A stretch of 34,745 bases of DNA, taken from the IMG/VR virus record IMGVR_UViG_3300006894_000003, positions 1 through 34,745 of that record; one strand, 5' to 3'. Of the stretch, positions 10,561 through 23,961 are shown in pieces (position 1 is the first letter of the stretch; each line of letters opens with the position of its first letter). The position numbers were made by a program, and so were the translations under genes. The notes under the pieces were generated by a model. It had not been told where the DNA came from, made no database searches, and saw only the letters and a program-made list of their open reading frames with translations. This DNA is from a virus.

Positions 10561-13500
10561 TCACTTGCACTCTGACCAGCGGAAAGCGGGCTTGGAGACC
10601 TCGCACAGGATCGGGACGCCGCGCCACTGCCAGGTGAACGCCACCGCCAGGAGCTGCGCCCACAGCTCGGCTTCACCCTCCGGAACCGAGAGCACCACTT
10701 CATCGTGGACGACCGCCCGCAGGTACGGCCGGACGTTCTTCCCGCAGTCCTCAGCCTTCCGAACCAGCCGCAGCAGCGACTCGCACATGATGTCCCGCGC
10801 CGCACCCTGGCCCATGAGGGCGGGCCCCTGCGTGTACGCGCGCGCCGGATCCGGGCGCATCAACCGGCCGAACCCGTTGTCCAGGAGGCGGCCGGACGCA
10901 GCCTCCTCGCGCACCTCCTCGATGTACTCCGCCAGTCGGGGATACGCCTCATGCTTCGCGTCCCGGATCTGGTAGCACTTCTCCAACGGAATCCCGGTGC
11001 GCTCCGAGACCGCCTTGGGGCCCTGGCCGTAGTTCCCCGCGTGGTTGAACGCCTTGGTCTTGTCGTACGTCTCGGGGGTCGCCTCGCCGAAGTAGATCAG
11101 CGACATCTCGCGGTGGGCGTTGCGGCCTGGCTGCATGATCTCCATATACGCCGGGTCCTGGGAGAGACCCGCCATCGCCCGCAGGTCGACCTGCGAGAGG
11201 TCGGCGGTGATGACGACGTGGCCCGGGTCGGCGACCATGATGTCCCGCTCGGCCGCACCGGCGCCGCGCTTGCCCATGGTGGAGATGCCCGGCTTGACGT
11301 GGGCCCACCGGCCGGACCCCTGGGCCGCGCCGATGAGCGCGTGGACGCGGCCCTTGTCCGTCACCCACTTGGCGACTTCCGCGTACTTGCGCCGCGCACC
11401 GGTGGCCTGGAGAACCAGATCCACCACCTTGCCGAGCTCCTCGTTGCCCGCGTACACCTGCATCAGCCCGGGCTGGGACTTGCCGGTGTCCGTGTTGAAC
11501 CAGGGCTCGCCTCCCAGCGCGTCCGCGCCGAGCGCCAGGGCCCCGGACTTGGTCCGGGGCAGGTGCTTGGCCCCAGCGGTCCTGAAGGCGCGCTCGATGG
11601 CCTCACGGCCGGGCGCGGTCGCCCAGGGGGCGTCGTACGGCTCGCCCGGGATCCGTTCGGCCAGCCCGCGTGCTACGGCCGCCTCGGGGAACATCTTCGT
11701 GTACCGGCAGACCGCTCGGTGCGAGTAGCCCCCTGCTGCGTCCCGCCACTCCTTGACGACCTTGAACCGGTCCGGCCGGTGAGTCGGCATCCCGTACTCC
11801 TCGGACAGGACGCGCACCGCCTCCTGGCGCTGCGCGTCCTCGTGCGCGACCCGCTCCGCCAAGAGCTCGGTGTCGGTCGCCCAGCCGTTCAGCGTCATGC
11901 GGTTCTGGAGCGCGACGATCTCCATCTCGCGGTTCGCGTACTGAATCGTGCGCTCGTCCGGACTGTTCCCTTCGTCGCCCATGCGCAGCATGCGCAAACC
12001 CTGATACGCGGCCTTCGTCGCGGCCAGGTCGCCCCGCAGGTAGTCCTGGTACTCACGCGAGTCGAGCGGGATCCGGTCGTACCCTCCGTACCGCTGGGCC
12101 AGAGCCTTGAGGTCGTCGGTCTTGCCCTCGTGGCCAAGGCGGTGCGCCACCTGGTCCAGGCCGTAATACCCGTTGGGCATGCCCTTGGCCAGTGGCGGAT
12201 CGATCAACCGGGCCAGGACCTGTGTGTCCACGGCCTTGGCCGCGAGCGCGTCGTAGTCGGCCCCGTGGTGGTGTGCGAGGGCAAGGAGGTCGAAGCCCAG
12301 GATGTTGTGGCCGTAGATGACGTCGGCCGCATTGAGCTGTGCCAGCGACGTTCGGTACGGGTCCGGCGGGTAGTGGCCGGACGGCTCAACACTGCACTCG
12401 ATTTCGTGGGCTTCGTCGTACGCCAGGCCCATGAGCCGCACAAACGACCCTTCATGCCCGCCAGTGAACAGCTTGTCGGCGTCGGCGGTCTCCAGGTCGA
12501 ATCCGAGGGCGACGGGCGAGACAGGCTGTGAATAGCCGATCACCTCGCCACCTTCACGCACCTGGGTCCATTCACCCGCGCTCGGGAAGTCCTCGGGGCG
12601 CGATTCGCTGGTGATCTCCCACTCGTCCGGCGCCGGGGGCTCCGGCTCATCCCGGACCCCGCTGAACGGGTCCATGCCCTCCTTGTTGATCTCCACGCCG
12701 CTCCACCCCCGCTGCTGCTTGCCGCCGATGCTGAACCGGCCCTGCTGCACCTTGGCCGCGCGCACCACGTCGTGCGCCCCGAACCGGGACGCGAACGTGC
12801 GGTCGTTCCACGGCCGGTGGCCGCGCTCACCCGCCCAGTCGTTGAAGGCCTTGAGCATCTCCTGTGTCTGGGTGAACCCCTCGGGGTTGAACGTCAGGCA
12901 CTCGTCCGAGAAGCCCAGGATCAGGTCCGTCTCGGCACGCCAGCTCCTGGTCTCGCGCTCCACACGCTCCGGGACCGGGAGCATCATCCGGCCGCGCTCG
13001 TACCACTTGCGGGCCCCCTCCACCATCCAGGCCAGGGCGGCATCGCGTACGGCCGGAGTGTTGGCCGCGTAGGCCAGGGTGGGGTCTCCCACGCGGTCCA
13101 GAGGCCCTTCCAGGGGCTCCCCGGCCTTCCTGAAGGTGTAGGGCCACGGCATGAGCGACAGGCGCCTCCAGGTGCCGTGGTCCGTCTCGGTGACGGTGGG
13201 CCGGTAGTTGGTGTTGATGAAGAGGCTGTGGGAGGCGATGAACTCGACCGGGTCCATCCTGATGCGGCGCGCCTTGATCGTCGGCGTGCCCACCGTCTGC
13301 TTGAGCCGCTGGACGTTCAGGTGCCGGGCCTCGGGGGTCTCCTCCATGAGCGCGTACCGGGCCCCCTTGAAGTCCATGAGCTCGGTGGGGTGCGCGTCCG
13401 GCGACGCCATGAGGACGCGGTCCGAGACGAGCACCCCGTACCCGGCCAGCGTCTTGCGCATGACCTCCATCACGGTGGACTTGCCGTTGGACCCCGTGCC

Positions 13501-14826
13501 GTGCGCGATGACCATCATGTGGTCCGGCGTCATGTAGCCCGTCAGAGCCTGTCCGATGCGGTCCTGGAACCACTCGCACAGGTCGGCGGGGACGGCCTCC
13601 AAGGCCCGGTCCCAGACGGCGTGACGCAGGTTGGGGTGGTACTCCGCGTCACAGATCTTGGTGATGCAGTGCTCGGGGTCGAACGGCAGCAGGCGCCCGG
13701 TGGGCAGGTGCACCGTGCCGTTGCCGACCGTGAGGAGGTCGGGGTCCCCGTCGAACTCGGCCGCGTCGCGCTGGAGCAGACCGCGCGAGAGGTCGCGCAG
13801 GGCGGTGAGGCGGCTCTTGCCCAGGATGGCCCGCCACCCGGCGATGGCGCCGGAGAGGTTGCGGGACGGCTCCTTGCGCTGCGTGGCAAGGACCGCGTCG
13901 AACTGCTCACTGGCCCACTGCCGGACCGCCTCCAGCGGCTCTACGTCGGAGACGTCACGCCAGATACGCCCGTCCCACCGCAGCCACCCGAGGCCCGAAG
14001 CCCAGCAGAAGCGCCCCTGAAGGGCTTCCGCCAGCTCCTCGACCAGGAACGCGTCCGTGAACGCCGCGTCCTTCTCACCGGCGCCTGGGGGCGTCTGCAC
14101 GGCCGCCGCGCCCAGCACCTCCAGGGTGCCTCCGGCCGCGAAGAAGTCGTCGACCCCCTTGACGGGCTTCCCGTCGACTTCGGCGGGCACCACGAGGTAG
14201 TTGACGGTGGCCGCGCCCCGGCTCTTGAGCCAGGCACCCAAGCGGCTCATGGCCAGCTGGACGTTGCGGTTGCCGGACGCGTCGGAGTCGAAGCAGACGA
14301 CGGCCGGGCGCCCCTTGATGGGGATCTCCTCCCAGTCTCCGAGGACACCGTCCTTGGCCTTCCAGTTGAAGACGCCCGTGAGGCCGACGCAGGCCATGCC
14401 CTGAGAGACCAGCGAGTCGACCTTTTTGACCCCCTCGGTGATCCACAGGGACGCCCCGGGCTCGTCCCGCAGGCGCTGCGCGGTGTTGGCGGGGACGTCG
14501 ACCACGTTGGGCGCGCCCTTGGGGGTCTCGTACTTGATCGGGACGGGCGTGCCGTCCTCCTTGCGGCGCGTCCGGGGGACGTGCGGCTTGTACTGGTAGC
14601 CCCGCACGTCTCCGTTCATGCCGTACATCGGGATCAGGAGGCCCGGGTAGGCGTCGTCGCGGTTCCAGACGTACGGCTTGAAGCCCAGGGACTCCAGGAG
14701 GTCCCGGTCGGCGCCGGTGCCCGTGAGGGTGCGGTAGCCCCGGGCGAGGGCCACTGAAGAGTCAATATCGGAGTCGGTCATCAGCTCCGAGTAGTGCTCG
14801 GTGGACAGAGCGGTGATCAGGTCCAT
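10561..14826 (-). CDS. Fused TOPRIM-like/SF3 helicase/family A DNA polymerase with 3'-5' exonuclease
   Basis: A 1421-residue replication protein, ATG at 14826 after GAAGGGTACCG. Residues ~1-240 resemble DUF3854/TOPRIM-like primase parts (LWITEGVKKVDSL, VVCFDSDASGN). Residues ~260-570 are a P4/D5-type SF3 helicase: Walker A GTGSNGKST (443-451), YALMEET Walker-B-like (491-497), LFINTNYRPTV sensor (535-545). Residues ~770-935 are a DEDD exonuclease: FDLET (D777, E779), NILGFD (N841, D846), Y929-x3-D933. Residues ~1195-1421 are the polymerase fingers/palm: motif A TADLSQVDLR (D1209), motif B KAFNHAGNYG (K1258, Y1266), motif C VVHDEVV (H1374, D1375, E1376). It could unwind, possibly prime, and copy the phage genome alone. 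Whether a real primase active site is present is uncertain. Confidence 0.85.
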   Translation of the reverse strand: MDLITALSTEHYSELMTDSDIDSSVALARGYRTLTGTGADRDLLESLGFKPYVWNRDDAYPGLLIPMYGMNGDVRGYQYKPHVPRTRRKEDGTPVPIKYETPKGAPNVVDVPANTAQRLRDEPGASLWITEGVKKVDSLVSQGMACVGLTGVFNWKAKDGVLGDWEEIPIKGRPAVVCFDSDASGNRNVQLAMSRLGAWLKSRGAATVNYLVVPAEVDGKPVKGVDDFFAAGGTLEVLGAAAVQTPPGAGEKDAAFTDAFLVEELAEALQGRFCWASGLGWLRWDGRIWRDVSDVEPLEAVRQWASEQFDAVLATQRKEPSRNLSGAIAGWRAILGKSRLTALRDLSRGLLQRDAAEFDGDPDLLTVGNGTVHLPTGRLLPFDPEHCITKICDAEYHPNLRHAVWDRALEAVPADLCEWFQDRIGQALTGYMTPDHMMVIAHGTGSNGKSTVMEVMRKTLAGYGVLVSDRVLMASPDAHPTELMDFKGARYALMEETPEARHLNVQRLKQTVGTPTIKARRIRMDPVEFIASHSLFINTNYRPTVTETDHGTWRRLSLMPWPYTFRKAGEPLEGPLDRVGDPTLAYAANTPAVRDAALAWMVEGARKWYERGRMMLPVPERVERETRSWRAETDLILGFSDECLTFNPEGFTQTQEMLKAFNDWAGERGHRPWNDRTFASRFGAHDVVRAAKVQQGRFSIGGKQQRGWSGVEINKEGMDPFSGVRDEPEPPAPDEWEITSESRPEDFPSAGEWTQVREGGEVIGYSQPVSPVALGFDLETADADKLFTGGHEGSFVRLMGLAYDEAHEIECSVEPSGHYPPDPYRTSLAQLNAADVIYGHNILGFDLLALAHHHGADYDALAAKAVDTQVLARLIDPPLAKGMPNGYYGLDQVAHRLGHEGKTDDLKALAQRYGGYDRIPLDSREYQDYLRGDLAATKAAYQGLRMLRMGDEGNSPDERTIQYANREMEIVALQNRMTLNGWATDTELLAERVAHEDAQRQEAVRVLSEEYGMPTHRPDRFKVVKEWRDAAGGYSHRAVCRYTKMFPEAAVARGLAERIPGEPYDAPWATAPGREAIERAFRTAGAKHLPRTKSGALALGADALGGEPWFNTDTGKSQPGLMQVYAGNEELGKVVDLVLQATGARRKYAEVAKWVTDKGRVHALIGAAQGSGRWAHVKPGISTMGKRGAGAAERDIMVADPGHVVITADLSQVDLRAMAGLSQDPAYMEIMQPGRNAHREMSLIYFGEATPETYDKTKAFNHAGNYGQGPKAVSERTGIPLEKCYQIRDAKHEAYPRLAEYIEEVREEAASGRLLDNGFGRLMRPDPARAYTQGPALMGQGAARDIMCESLLRLVRKAEDCGKNVRPYLRAVVHDEVVLSVPEGEAELWAQLLAVAFTWQWRGVPILCEVSKPAFRWSECK

Positions 14827-18739: not shown

Positions 18740-19522
18740 ATGGCCAGGATGTACGTCACCCCCGAGCTCGCGGCCCGGTTCCTGGAGGCCAACACCCACA
18801 ACCGCAAGCTGAGCGAGGACCGTGTCCGGGACTACGCCCGGGACATGCTCGCGGGCCACTGGCCCTACAACGGCGAGACGATCAAGGTCGCCGAAGACGG
18901 GACGATCATCGACGGACAGCACCGTCTGGCTGCCATCGTCCTCTCGAACGCCATGGTCGAGATGGAGGTGATCACCGGGCTCCCCATGGAGGTCCAGGCC
19001 ACGGTCGACACCGGCCGCCGCCGCAGCGTGGGCGACACGCTCACGCTCCAGGGTGAGCAGTACTCCCGGAACCTCGCCGCCATCACCGCCAAGGTGTGGC
19101 AGTGGGACAACAAGAACTACCGGTTCTCCACCCGTCCCAGCCCCACTGCGGCCGAGGCCCTGGAGACGCTGGAGAAGTACCCCTCGCTGCGCCGCTCGGC
19201 TGAGCTGGGGCACCGGGTGGCGCTGAGCTTCAGGCCCGCCCGCGCCTCGGTCCTGGGTACCGCGCACCACCTCTTCCTACAGATCGACCCCGACGCCACC
19301 GCGCTGTTCATGGCGCAGCTGGAGACGGGCGCCGACCTCGCGCACGGGCACCCGGTCCTGGCGCTCCGCAACCGCTTCACTCAGGACCGTCTCCAGCAGC
19401 GCGCCGTCCCCTTCCACGTGGGCGTGGGCTGCTGCATCCGGGCCTGGAACGCCACCCGCGCCGGGGAGTCGCTGACCATCATCAAGATGACGGCCGACGC
19501 CACGATGCCGAAGCCGGTCTAG
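18740..19522 (+). CDS. ParB-like nuclease domain protein
   Basis: A 260-residue protein, ATG 18740 with AAGGAGAAGCAC upstream. Residues 1-85 carry a ParB/Srx-type fold: YVTPELAARFLEANTHNRKL, then LSEDRVRDYARDMLAGHWPY and IIDGQHRLAAIV, where D-G-Q-H-R-L is the hallmark (G-x-H/N-R) that binds nucleotide in ParB proteins. The C-terminal half is helical, with no HTH I can name. Phage ParB-like proteins are often annotated as regulators or DNA nickases. It is a single gene under P4. Confidence 0.7.
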   Translation: MARMYVTPELAARFLEANTHNRKLSEDRVRDYARDMLAGHWPYNGETIKVAEDGTIIDGQHRLAAIVLSNAMVEMEVITGLPMEVQATVDTGRRRSVGDTLTLQGEQYSRNLAAITAKVWQWDNKNYRFSTRPSPTAAEALETLEKYPSLRRSAELGHRVALSFRPARASVLGTAHHLFLQIDPDATALFMAQLETGADLAHGHPVLALRNRFTQDRLQQRAVPFHVGVGCCIRAWNATRAGESLTIIKMTADATMPKPV

Positions 19523-20705: not shown

Positions 20706-21078
20706 CACCAACCGCCAGGGTGCGAACTTCGAGCTCAAGGTGATGCACGACCTGGAAGAGCACGGGTACACGTGCCTGCGCTCCTCCGGCTCCCGGGGCG
20801 CCGTGGACGTCGTGGCGGTGGCCCGGCGCGGCTGGGACCCCGTGGACGAGTACGACTCGTCCAACCTGCTGTTCATCCAGTGCAAGATCACAAACCCGGT
20901 GATTCCCCCGTACGAGCGCAACGCCGTACAGGACCTGGCCACCCGGGCTGCGGCGATCCCCCTGGTCGCCCACTGGGCGCCCGATCAGACCACCGGCCTC
21001 ATGCGGGTCCACTACCGGCAACTCACGGGCCCCGGGCCCAAGGACTGGGAGCACTGGGCTCCCGGAAAGGACGAATGA
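20695..21078 (+). CDS. Hjc-like Holliday junction resolvase (PD-(D/E)XK)
   Basis: A 127-residue protein, GTG 20695, overlapping the previous gene by 11 bases. The motif order is that of archaeal-type Hjc resolvases: GANFELKVMHDLEEHGYTCL with E13, RSSGSRGAVDVVAV with D38, and LLFIQCKI with Q62 and K64 (the E-x-K position occupied by Q-x-K). Size also fits. It would cut four-way junctions before packaging or during recombination with the SF2 helicase and nuclease. The Q-for-E change occurs in related families, so activity is plausible. Confidence 0.75.
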   Translation: MARNTNRQGANFELKVMHDLEEHGYTCLRSSGSRGAVDVVAVARRGWDPVDEYDSSNLLFIQCKITNPVIPPYERNAVQDLATRAAAIPLVAHWAPDQTTGLMRVHYRQLTGPGPKDWEHWAPGKDE

Positions 21079-21914
21079 TGGAACTCCATCTGAACGACGA
21101 CCAGGGCAAAGAGCTGGTGTTCACGCCGTATGACGACGCCAGCCTCATGGTCCGGCTGCACGACCGGGCCACCGGCTCCCTGAAGCTGGACTCAGGCGAC
21201 GCCGACCAGCTGTGGGAGTTCCTGGGCAAGTGGCTGGACAAGGGCACCGCCCCGGCGGCCCCTGCGCCCCTCACAGCGGCCGACGTACGCGCCATCGCCT
21301 CCCAGGTCGCCGGAGAGGTCGTAGCCCTCCACATGAGCCCTCAGGCCCGCCTGAGCGACGCTGTGGCCGCGCGCCTGTGCACCGTCCCGAACTGCCAGCG
21401 GTTCCCCGGGGTGTCGGAGCACTTCGAGCACGACGCCCCGGCCACGTGCGAGGGGTGCCGTGGCGGCAACCACCCGCACGTGTTCCGCCCGTGCCCCGTG
21501 TGCGAGTGCGGGTGGCGGGAGACGGACCCCGAGCCCCACGACGTCGGCCACCCCCTGGACCCGGTCGGCACCTCCTGGTCCGACCGCATCTGGAACGCGC
21601 CCGAGCCCGTCCGCTGCACCATCCCGGCCCCGGCGGGCGCGCTTCTCACGGACACCTGCCCCATGTGCGGATACCTCTGGATGCTCCACCAGCGGGCACC
21701 CAAGCCGAGCGAGCGGCCCCTACGGACCCCCTGCGGACTCTGCGGGAAGCCCTGGAGCGACGTCCACGGCCAGCCCGGCGACCCCTGCACGGGTGCGCCC
21801 AGGCAGCTGGTCGGGTGCGAGTGCGGGCACCGCTGGGGAGTGCACGCTGAGGTAGGGGGTTGTATCCGGTGCGAATGCAGCACGCCCCCGCCGCCCGTGC
21901 CGAGTGCGCCATGA
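21078..21914 (+). CDS. Multi-zinc-ribbon protein (278 aa)
   Basis: I chose ATG 21078, seven bases after AAAGG; ATG 21075 (overlapping the previous stop) adds one Met. Residues 1-100 are a beta/helical domain with DRATGSLKLDSGDADQLWEF. Residues ~105-278 carry a series of Cys pairs: CTVPNC, CEGC, CPVCECGW, CPMCGYLWMLH, CGLCGKPWSDVH and CECGHRWGVH-x5-CIRCEC. Several follow C-x2-C-G-x3-4-x-x-H, so this may be a chain of duplicated zinc ribbons. The last third overlaps the start of the GRGTGC-word array. Function unknown; nucleic-acid or protein scaffold is plausible. Confidence 0.6.
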   Translation: MELHLNDDQGKELVFTPYDDASLMVRLHDRATGSLKLDSGDADQLWEFLGKWLDKGTAPAAPAPLTAADVRAIASQVAGEVVALHMSPQARLSDAVAARLCTVPNCQRFPGVSEHFEHDAPATCEGCRGGNHPHVFRPCPVCECGWRETDPEPHDVGHPLDPVGTSWSDRIWNAPEPVRCTIPAPAGALLTDTCPMCGYLWMLHQRAPKPSERPLRTPCGLCGKPWSDVHGQPGDPCTGAPRQLVGCECGHRWGVHAEVGGCIRCECSTPPPPVPSAP

Positions 21915-22986
21915 GTGCGCGCATCTGCGTCCACTGCGGGATGGACCACCTGGGCGTAGGGCACCCGGTACAGCTCTGCAAGTGCGGTCACTGCACCCGG
22001 GTGCACTCAGGCTCTTACGGCTACGGGAACTGCCACGAGGACGAGTGCGAGTGCACCTGGTACGCACGGGACGACCGGAAGCGGTGGTGGAAGTGAGTGC
22101 GATCAAGAGCACCGACACGATCCTGTGGGGTGCACTCGGGTGCGCACTCGTAGGCACAGCGCACTCCGAATGGTCCCTGGCCGTCAGCGTGGGTGCGCAC
22201 CCGTGGATTGCGGCGGCCGTACCCGGCGCACTCGACCTCTACGTGATCCGCGCACTCCAGGTCCGCCGGGACGTCTTCCTCTCCGTACTCGCCATGGTCG
22301 CGGCCAACGTGGCCTGGTACCTCGTGCACTCGGGGGACCTGCCCGTGGACTGGCCCCTGCGGAGTGCGGTGGGTGCGGTCGCACCCCTGGTCGTCTGGCG
22401 GGTGCACGCCCTGAAGTACACCCGCACCCGCCAAGAGCTGCTGTGGGGCCTGGAAGCGGGTGCGGAGAGTGCACCCGAACCGGAGCGCACCCGCTCGCGG
22501 TCCCGGTGGCCCTGGCGCAAGACGAGTGCACCCGCACCCGGCGAGGAGCCGCACCCGGTAGAGGACGAGTGCGCACCCGCGCACGAACCGTGGTGCGGTC
22601 TGACGCACCCGGATGACGAGCCGTGCTCCGAGTACGGGTACCCGCCCGCACCCGAGCCTGCACCCGTATGGAGCCCCGGGTACCACCTGGACGGGTGCGA
22701 CGGGGTGCACCCCCTGGAGGGGCCCGCCGAGTGCATCCTGCGGGCCCGGGAGCTTACGGGTGCGGTCGCACCCGACTACGTACCCGCCTGGCTCGAATCG
22801 GGTGACCTCGCGAGTGCGGACGAGTACGCCGACAAGTGGGAGTGCCCGGACGCACCCGTACCGCACCTGCGTGCCGTACCCGCACTCGCACCCGAAGACG
22901 AAATGGATCACACCCTGCACTCCAAGGAGTGCCCCGACGGGTGCGCGTGCCCGAGTGCACTTGCCTACGTACCCCAGGCCGCACTC
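21790..22986. repeat. Dense array of short word GRGTGC / GCACYC
   Basis: About 55-60 copies (hand count) of GAGTGC, GGGTGC, GCACTC and GCACCC lie in ~1.2 kb spanning the end of the 21078 gene, all of the 21911 gene and most of the 22093 gene. The words fall in all codon phases and often pair into palindromes such as GGGTGCACTC (21999-22008, 22128-22137), GAGTGCACCC (22467-22476, 22524-22533), GGGTGCACCC (22703-22712) and GGGTGCGCACTC (22138-22149). The array ends abruptly near 22986. The following 1.2 kb holds about two copies. Confidence 0.8.
21911..22096 (+). CDS. Small zinc-ribbon protein (61 aa)
   Basis: ATG 21911 overlaps the previous TGA (ATGA). The peptide starts MSARICVHCGMDHLGVGHPV and continues LCKCGHCTRVHSGSYGYGNC, then HEDECECTWYARDD. 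C-x2-C-G-x-x-H, C-x-C-G-H-x3-V-H and C-x4-C-x-C repeat the pattern of the C-terminal ribbon of the preceding protein (CECGHRWGVH...CIRCEC), so it looks like a detached copy of that domain. It ends with the basic KRWWK. Entirely within the GRGTGC-word array. Confidence 0.6.
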   Translation: MSARICVHCGMDHLGVGHPVQLCKCGHCTRVHSGSYGYGNCHEDECECTWYARDDRKRWWK

Positions 22987-23142
22987 ATGACAGGCGACCT
23001 GGAGTACCTGCCCACCGCCCAGGAGTACATCGCCACCGCCGACCGCCCCACCGTCCGGGGCCTGCGCCGCTACGCGAACGTCGGCCAGGCCCGCGCCGAA
23101 CGCCTCCTCGCCCACCTCGGGGTCCGGAAGGAGAAGTCGTGA
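22093..23142 (+). CDS. Membrane protein with DUF2637/SpdB-like N-terminus and HTH-like C-terminus
   Basis: A 349-residue protein; GTG 22093 overlaps the previous TGA. Residues ~8-105 hold about four hydrophobic segments (ILWGALGCALVGTAHSEWSL, AVSVGAHPWIAAAVPGALDL, VFLSVLAMVAANVAWYLV, AVGAVAPLVVW); 'W-x-A-A-A-x-P-x-A-L-D' recalls DUF2637/SpdB proteins of Streptomyces plasmids. Residues ~125-315 are Pro/Glu/Cys-rich and low in complexity. Residues ~318-345 (RPTVRGLRRYANVGQARAER, LLAHLGV) look like a short HTH. The biased codons (AGT, GCA, TGC) come from the GRGTGC/GCACYC words. A membrane-DNA tether is a guess supported by this layout only. Confidence 0.5.
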   Translation: MSAIKSTDTILWGALGCALVGTAHSEWSLAVSVGAHPWIAAAVPGALDLYVIRALQVRRDVFLSVLAMVAANVAWYLVHSGDLPVDWPLRSAVGAVAPLVVWRVHALKYTRTRQELLWGLEAGAESAPEPERTRSRSRWPWRKTSAPAPGEEPHPVEDECAPAHEPWCGLTHPDDEPCSEYGYPPAPEPAPVWSPGYHLDGCDGVHPLEGPAECILRARELTGAVAPDYVPAWLESGDLASADEYADKWECPDAPVPHLRAVPALAPEDEMDHTLHSKECPDGCACPSALAYVPQAALMTGDLEYLPTAQEYIATADRPTVRGLRRYANVGQARAERLLAHLGVRKEKS

Positions 23143-23363: not shown

Positions 23364-23443
23364 GGGACGTCATCTCCGGCCTCCTGTGGGCCATCTTCAC
23401 CCTCGCTTCGCTCATCGCCTTCCTGGACTGGATGCTCCCGTGA
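23360..23443 (+). CDS. Tiny membrane peptide (27 aa)
   Basis: ATG 23360 overlaps the previous TGA and its TGA overlaps the next GTG, with GGGGGGCGGCAGGC upstream. The peptide MRDVISGLLWAIFTLASLIA FLDWMLP has one hydrophobic segment (about residues 5-22) with an acidic/aromatic end. It is kept here because the 4-base overlaps on both sides are the rule throughout this block. It could be a micro-holin, a signal-arrest-like peptide or a modulator of the next membrane protein. Confidence 0.45.
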   Translation: MRDVISGLLWAIFTLASLIAFLDWMLP

Positions 23444-23961
23444 ACCTGACCGCGCCGCAGGGCATCACCTACGGCACCCTCGTGATCGGCCTGATCGCCC
23501 TCGCGGCGGAACTCGCCGACTGGTACCCGGGCTGGAAGGCCCTGAAGAAGAAGCCCCTGGCCTACCTGGCCAACCTGGTCCCGTTCACCTTCATGTGGGC
23601 CGTCGGAGCCCTCATGGCGATGTGCGCAGGGGGCCTGATCGGATGGGCCACGGACTGGTTCGTCTGGGGGGCCGGATGGCTCGGAGACGGGGCCCTGATC
23701 TACGGCCTGGGCGGGGAGCGCCAGGCGGTCGCCCAGGGCCTCTCACAGCCCCTCACGAACGGCGGCCTGGCCATGACCCTCATCATCCTCACGATGGCCG
23801 TTATCCGCCTCAAGAAGGGCGGCGTGGACTGGAGCCGCAAGCGCGGCATCATCTCCGGCGCCACGCTCGGCCTGTCGGCAGGAGTTGCGGCCGTCGTGGC
23901 CGTCCCCCTCGCATCGGCCGTCAACATCGCTGGGGCCTGGATCCCGGGAGGGGCGCTGTGA
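23440..23961 (+). CDS. Membrane protein with about four TM segments (173 aa)
   Basis: GTG 23440 overlaps the previous TGA. Hydrophobic segments are near residues 10-27, 43-70, 104-122 and 136-160, separated by basic loops (GWKALKKKP, RLKKGGVDWSRKRG). A middle loop with ADLW-like aromatic clusters (TDWFVWGAGW) lies near the membrane surface. No transporter or enzyme motif is visible. Similar four-TM proteins occur in actinophage accessory regions without known function. The following gene overlaps by four bases. Confidence 0.6.
   Translation: MNLTAPQGITYGTLVIGLIALAAELADWYPGWKALKKKPLAYLANLVPFTFMWAVGALMAMCAGGLIGWATDWFVWGAGWLGDGALIYGLGGERQAVAQGLSQPLTNGGLAMTLIILTMAVIRLKKGGVDWSRKRGIISGATLGLSAGVAAVVAVPLASAVNIAGAWIPGGAL

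Follow-up and report, generated by a model that had tools for sequence, protein, structure and literature searches.

The question raised by this locus is what keeps dozens of copies of one short word within about 1.2 kb of phage coding DNA, and which protein would read them. The window, i.e., the whole stretch of DNA analysed, is an entire IMG/VR virus record (34,745 bp, 69% G+C) with a gene content of the tailed phage type (a large terminase was found). When 11 kb of this DNA were compared with phage records by megablast, there was no match. An earlier note on this DNA had described a dense array of the word GRGTGC and its complement GCACYC, and had proposed that selection acted on the DNA itself.

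At the sequence level, the array (21791-22986; 57 hexamers) has its core in one gene, gene 3, and a thinner fringe in two upstream genes, genes 1 and 2. The whole window contains 118 GRGTGC/GCACYC words, and 57 of them lie within 21780-23010, where the remaining window predicts about 2.3; the kilobase that follows holds only 2-3. These counts agree with the estimates of the earlier note (some 55-60 words in 1.2 kb against about three expected, and about two in the next 1.2 kb). In a k-mer scan, the array was the sole word peak of this record. Its strands are balanced, with 29 words on each. The presence of words in every codon phase was confirmed, but their use is uneven (29, 7, and 23 words in phases 0, 1, and 2). 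A palindrome search retrieved five perfect 10-bp GRGTGCACYC palindromes, which had been reported as frequent: GGGTGCACTC at 21999-22008 and 22128-22137, GAGTGCACCC at 22467-22476 and 22524-22533, and GGGTGCACCC at 22703-22712. Every one lies within the array and none elsewhere in the 34,745-bp record, with 0.47 expected for the whole window. As had also been noticed, the words are built with codons that are rare outside the array: GCA accounts for 19 of 51 alanine codons (5% elsewhere) and AGT for 8 of 25 serine codons (2% elsewhere). GTA and GGT codons are likewise raised. Repeat tests excluded a tandem repeat or duplication as the source of the array.

At the gene level, the array had been said to span three genes. 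Words are present in all of them, but the overwhelming excess is found only in gene 3 (22093-23142, + strand). We used a null model of synonymous-codon shuffles that keep the protein sequence, with 1000 shuffles per part. The membrane part of gene 3 (22093-22431) contains 16 words against 3.9 ± 1.7 in the shuffles, and the linker part (22432-22989) contains 29 against 9.6 ± 2.2; none of the 1000 shuffles reached the observed count in either part. The claim of selection on the DNA itself thus survives the codon-shuffled null. The last word ends at 22986, and the stretch just past it (22990-23139), which encodes the C-terminal helix-turn-helix (HTH) domain, has none. Gene 1 (21075-21914, + strand; a 279-aa Cys/His-rich protein) presented a weak excess confined to its last 240 bp (6 words against 3.2, reached by 38 of 1000 shuffles), and gene 2 (21911-22096, + strand; a 61-aa Cys/His-rich protein) a similarly weak one (7 against 4.1, reached by 24 of 1000). 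Both counts are partly elevated because of the Cys/His content. We conclude that the array exists and centres on a single gene.

Gene 3 encodes a 349-aa protein, and the whole protein had no family match in Pfam, PHROGs, or NCBIfam. DUF2637, considered as a candidate for the membrane domain, found no support in the Pfam scan. The AlphaFold2 model has a low mean confidence and displays three parts. The membrane part consists of four helices (residues 8-32, 37-57, 59-79, and 87-109), predicted to lie in the membrane, with pLDDT mostly 50-70. The linker (residues 113-293) is predicted to be disordered, with pLDDT below 50 for most of its length. Finally, residues 300-341, within 22990-23142, form a three-helix domain with pLDDT of about 96, and the prediction was repeated on the domain alone.

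That this C-terminal domain is an HTH is well supported, and its resemblance to FtsK-gamma is a lead. The best Pfam match was FtsK_gamma (PF09397), below threshold (E 0.11; 12.6 bits, where the cut-off is 30.6), and the same family matched 7 of 16 members of the domain class at E up to 1, with 0.0098 as the best value. A profile of the class against the PDB matched the FtsK-gamma structure 2j5p at E 0.0016; PPR-repeat matches in the same search were repeat artefacts. Foldseek gave no significant match, either with the whole gene 3 model or with the HTH alone; on the FtsK-gamma fold, 38 columns of the HTH aligned at 0.9 angstrom with a non-significant E of about 4.

Downstream of gene 3, a second membrane protein (23434-23961, + strand; phrog_16379 by PHROG match) is a possible partner, and it likewise sits beside that gene in the phage relatives and in the integrative elements L114 and L115. 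A phrog_5931 protein (18740-19519, + strand) with weak ParB-like and DndB-like matches is conserved close to the array in related phages as well, and could possibly be a partner in a partition role. On the other strand, a 1421-aa ORF (10561-14826) appears to combine a primase/helicase region with a DNA polymerase region of the family A-like type (domains assigned by eye); it shares 70-79% identity over long stretches with four related phages.

Profile and sequence searches retrieved eight loci in phage relatives, with an overall protein identity of 45-65%. The array was found in the same gene in all eight, as GRGTGC or GRGTRC, and it formed the sole word peak of four 41-44 kb relatives that are nearly full-length, two of which have matching ends. 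In the membrane part, 8-15 of 18 words occupy shared positions. At four-fold synonymous sites encoding the same residue, 929 of 1213 (77%) are identical inside the words, compared to 1001 of 2089 (48%) outside; since the sequences share ancestry, this comparison is an effect size without a p-value. Words are thus kept while the proteins diverge, the reverse of the pattern (proteins conserved, words lost) that would have spoken against selection on the DNA. The k-mer scan also brought out a local cluster of CGTTAA (L003, 10346-10398; L006, 10829-10854), which is ordinary: an apparent GVN repeat in a collagen-like gene.

Pfam searches found no tyrosine integrase in the phage records, no FtsK/SpoIIIE match in any of the nine, and no ParA-type ATPase (PF13614) in any of eight. 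Hence, there is no sign of a plasmid-like stage in these phages, and a ParABS system was rejected on the lack of ParA.

Beyond phages, a plasmid protein search retrieved 49 weaker homologs of gene 3. A first scan of genome contigs found none, and a profile search based on the plasmid members then retrieved 16 loci in genome contigs. The homologous genes examined carry a dense 6-mer array within the same gene, with a different word. Plasmids of Streptomyces and Kitasatospora have TGAGAC, one S. chartreusis plasmid has TGAGAG, Micromonospora plasmids have CGGAAA, and the Micromonospora phage pMLP1 has CGGAAG. Further homologs use TGAGCG, CCGTACGG, CGTACA, CCGGTA, CGGAACC, CGGTACC, GGATAC, GGGTAC, and GTTGCA.

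We scored 87 non-redundant homologs (loci from phages, plasmids, integrated elements or genomes, and viruses) with protein-preserving shuffles. They had been picked up by their similarity to members from plasmids and phages and do not make up a random sample. Because the word of each gene was the best of all 6-mers, 106 control ORFs were scored identically. The 6-mer excess was above the control maximum (z 6.5) in 53 of the 87 and above the 95th percentile of the controls in 64; z was 9 for the window gene and reached 18 among the homologs. L033-L035, L037, L067, L070, and L098 were homologs without a clear array. Four of them (L033, L034, L035, and L037) have a different C-terminal domain and lack a detectable array, and serve as a natural control.

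Some homologous arrays are strongly biased in strand, with 13 of 15 TGAGAC words on one strand in L011, and 13 of 14 and 14 of 15 CGGAAA words in L013 and L015, respectively. The plasmid homologs sit in transfer regions, and L013 and L015 are near genes for FtsK and a T4SS coupling protein. Seven genomes have a chromosomal copy with a same-strand tyrosine integrase 8-14 kb away, and L116 belongs to an element with an excisionase-like HTH, an FtsK-like protein, a Prim-Pol, and an integrase. Two homologs (L011, 6834-8864; L012, 6771-8840) present a long N-terminal coiled coil that matches the NCBIfam model of Scy, a polar growth protein (E 1e-12 and 0.035, respectively). Sequence composition may account for this match, or it may point to anchoring at the hyphal tip.

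The variety of words allowed us to compare them with the parts of the protein, and the word covaries with the HTH and not with the membrane domain. The partial correlation between word and HTH similarity, given membrane-domain similarity, was 0.63, and none of 500 permutations reached it; for pairs with membrane similarity below 0.45, r was 0.48 (again 0 of 500). Among pairs with similar membrane domains, mean word similarity was 0.44 when the HTHs were similar (304 pairs) and 0.05 when they were different (426 pairs). Individual domain swaps illustrate this pattern: L073 and L072 (membrane similarity 0.90) carry GGATAC and CGGAAC, L055 and L052 (0.84) carry CCGTAC and CCGGTA, and L036 and L037 (0.98) carry TGAGCG and no array. 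In the reverse case, L036 and L097 share TGAGCG at a membrane similarity of only about 0.3. In a leave-one-out comparison restricted to membrane similarity below 0.5, the HTH-nearest gene had the word in common in 29 of 34 cases, compared to 7% when array genes were drawn at random. As counter-evidence, membrane-similar genes with dissimilar HTHs shared a 5-mer among their top words in 18 of 57 cases.

Within one HTH class, the variants SRAT and SKAT pair with TGAGAC, and SEAT pairs with TGAGAG. Such a pairing would be expected if arginine or lysine contacted G and glutamate contacted C; the switch from Arg/Lys to Glu, together with the change from TGAGAC to TGAGAG, may be a single evolutionary event. 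Two further homologs (L079, L080) have the variant SQAT and mixed words (TGAGAG, TGAAAC, and TGAAAG), possibly an array in transition between words. The HTH type of the window, GQxRA, also occurs in unrelated Streptomyces elements with the words GGGTAC, GGATAC, and GGATGC, and it pairs with the common word pattern G[AG][AG]T[AG]C.

Since the word covaries with the HTH, the array gene's own protein is its likely binder. On these sequence comparisons, the words are very probably binding sites of the HTH of the gene 3 protein, placed inside its own gene. The HTH would read the half-site GRGTGC, alone or as the palindrome GRGTGCACYC, the latter perhaps as a dimer. With dozens of sites in 1.2 kb, many membrane-held copies of the protein could grip a single location of the genome, which would be tethered to the cell membrane with the array as a centromere-like anchor. 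Such an anchor could position or keep replicating or plasmid-like phage DNA; we give an even chance to the proposal that the element is tethered to the membrane for its positioning or maintenance. Taken as a whole, the reading of the array as a cluster of sites for its own HTH, acting as a centromere-like membrane anchor of the phage genome, seems probable to us. The site could be written within the anchor gene because the linker tolerates nearly any sequence, and its position there means that site and reader are inherited together. Among the functions guessed in the earlier note, a loading or nucleation platform and a partition site come near this reading; a target of DNA modification, a packaging site, and the footprint of a directed process are unsupported by the covariation between word and HTH.

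Other explanations account for part of these data. The array could be a clt-like site for transfer or spread: it would flag the DNA for a translocase of the FtsK/TraB type or for movement from one hyphal compartment to another, and the membrane protein would act as loading factor. The conjugation genes beside L013 and L015, the mobile element around L116, and the FtsK-gamma resemblance of the gene 3 HTH would all fit, and clt itself consists of short repeats that adjoin or overlap the translocase gene (PMC3583192). However, the phage arrays are among the densest and yet none of the nine phage records gave an FtsK/SpoIIIE match, the clt/TRS repeats tested are absent from the array save one chance match, and the word tracks the HTH of the membrane protein itself. 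For the phage, identity with TraB/clt was rejected, as the Pfam search found no motor gene; the broader idea of a transfer site we consider unlikely. Origin-like or copy-control iterons, at which the membrane protein would bind the words and recruit replication to the membrane or pair sister molecules, would agree with dozens of short sites over 1.2 kb in an early gene block near a helicase gene, and with a phage that has its own polymerase-primase. Sites in a coding gene are not unusual for an origin; the lambda origin sits inside gene O. Nevertheless, the gene 3 protein has four predicted membrane helices and no replication domain, and plasmids and elements carry separate replication genes (e.g., the Prim-Pol in L116), so that iterons are a distinctly improbable explanation.

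Autoregulation, in which the protein would repress its operon from the membrane through the words as operators, would fit sites that lie within its own gene, and the HTH is small, as in many repressors. Yet the words are spread through the coding sequence with none placed upstream, dozens of sites far exceed the need of an operator, and the GRGTGCACYC palindromes are confined to the array; we regard this as very unlikely. Selection on RNA folding, with words pairing in the messenger, could be suggested by a 900-nt stretch that is more stable than its dinucleotide shuffles (z -5.6), although reverse-complementary words must pair and produce such stability by themselves. The nearly one-stranded arrays of L011, L013, and L015 indicate that RNA pairing is not a general cause, and folding leaves the link between word and HTH unexplained, which makes RNA structure hardly likely at all. 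As for an artefact of repeated dipeptides, odd codon usage, or tandem duplication, the words of plasmid homologs do often fall in one frame (GET and RET repeats) and the counts in genes 1 and 2 largely follow from the amino acids. Against this stand the z scores that remain after shuffling in the window gene and the homologs, the use of several frames and both strands, the lack of tandem duplication, and the conservation of synonymous sites inside words. For gene 3, the codon shuffles and this conservation refute an artefact of composition or codon usage, and we give practically no weight to an artefact in general.

The membrane anchor that we favour has several partial counterparts among known systems. 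The nearest is SpdA2 of the Streptomyces plasmid pIJ101 (PMC4170104), a protein that binds palindromes (sps) in its own gene and has segregational stability as its published phenotype. SpdA2 and the gene 3 protein would both be DNA-binding proteins of actinobacterial mobile elements with sites in their own coding sequence. However, sps comprises 2-3 copies of one conserved 12-bp palindrome (CGTCACGTGACG, with no copy in the window), whereas the present arrays consist of dozens of short words and change from lineage to lineage, and SpdA2 is a small soluble protein, zinc-finger-like at its N-terminus, unlike the four predicted membrane helices and C-terminal HTH of gene 3. TraB-type proteins of Streptomyces plasmids and AICEs read short repeats next to their genes (PMC3583192, PMC9513070). 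In TraB, a membrane protein, the reading domain is a C-terminal winged helix, and the repeats adjoin or overlap its own gene and differ between plasmids; gene 3 would resemble it in its predicted membrane helices and HTH, and in a reading of repeats suggested by covariation. In contrast, TraB is an FtsK-type motor and the gene 3 protein, with about 350 aa and no FtsK/SpoIIIE match in Pfam, is motor-less. Known clt sites cover 50-175 bp, compared to 1.2 kb of coding sequence here, and the clt/TRS repeats of pSVH1, pJV1, and pWTY27 are not enriched in the array.

FtsK gamma domains also read short and frequent words, and FtsK-gamma is the best, below-threshold match of the C-terminal domain in the window. 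Unlike FtsK, gene 3 has no motor domain, its word is GRGTGC, and its sites are clustered rather than genome-wide as KOPS are; no KOPS was found in the array. RacA of Bacillus subtilis ties ram sites to the pole (PMC6593407). This HTH protein uses a partner to hold clustered DNA sites at the membrane, and such a function is what we propose for gene 3. RacA differs in having sites scattered around the chromosome origin and in not being an integral membrane protein; no sequence relation between it and gene 3 turned up. Finally, p16.7 of phage phi29 is, according to passages of PMC4974454, an integral membrane protein of a phage that binds DNA, ties phage DNA to the membrane, and organises replication there. 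Those passages describe it as working through terminal protein and single-stranded DNA, and report no array of sites in its own gene. None of SpdA2, TraB, RacA, and p16.7 unites a motor-less membrane anchor, dozens of sites in its own gene, and lineage-specific words. In the open-access literature, we found no published dense array within its own gene matched to an exchangeable HTH, SpdA2/sps being the closest.

By kind, the locus would be an anchor-site or partition system, and there is a fair chance that it forms a separate class of its own. We lean slightly towards a widespread class in actinobacterial phages, plasmids, and integrative elements, in which a membrane anchor gene carries an exchangeable DNA-reading domain and the same DNA serves as centromere in the membrane and linker codons. 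When the domain is exchanged, the array would be rewritten to the new word, so that site and reader would behave as one evolving unit.

If this is true, DNA-binding specificities would be readable from genome sequence, as each homolog displays its word dozens of times, and the HTH-word pairs (e.g., R/K with TGAGAC and E with TGAGAG) would be a ready data set for a recognition code. It would also be a case of strong selection on a cis-acting site hidden within protein-coding sequence. Moreover, many hypothetical genes of Streptomyces plasmids, integrative elements, and phages would gain a role, and how such elements are positioned or kept in hyphae would become directly testable.
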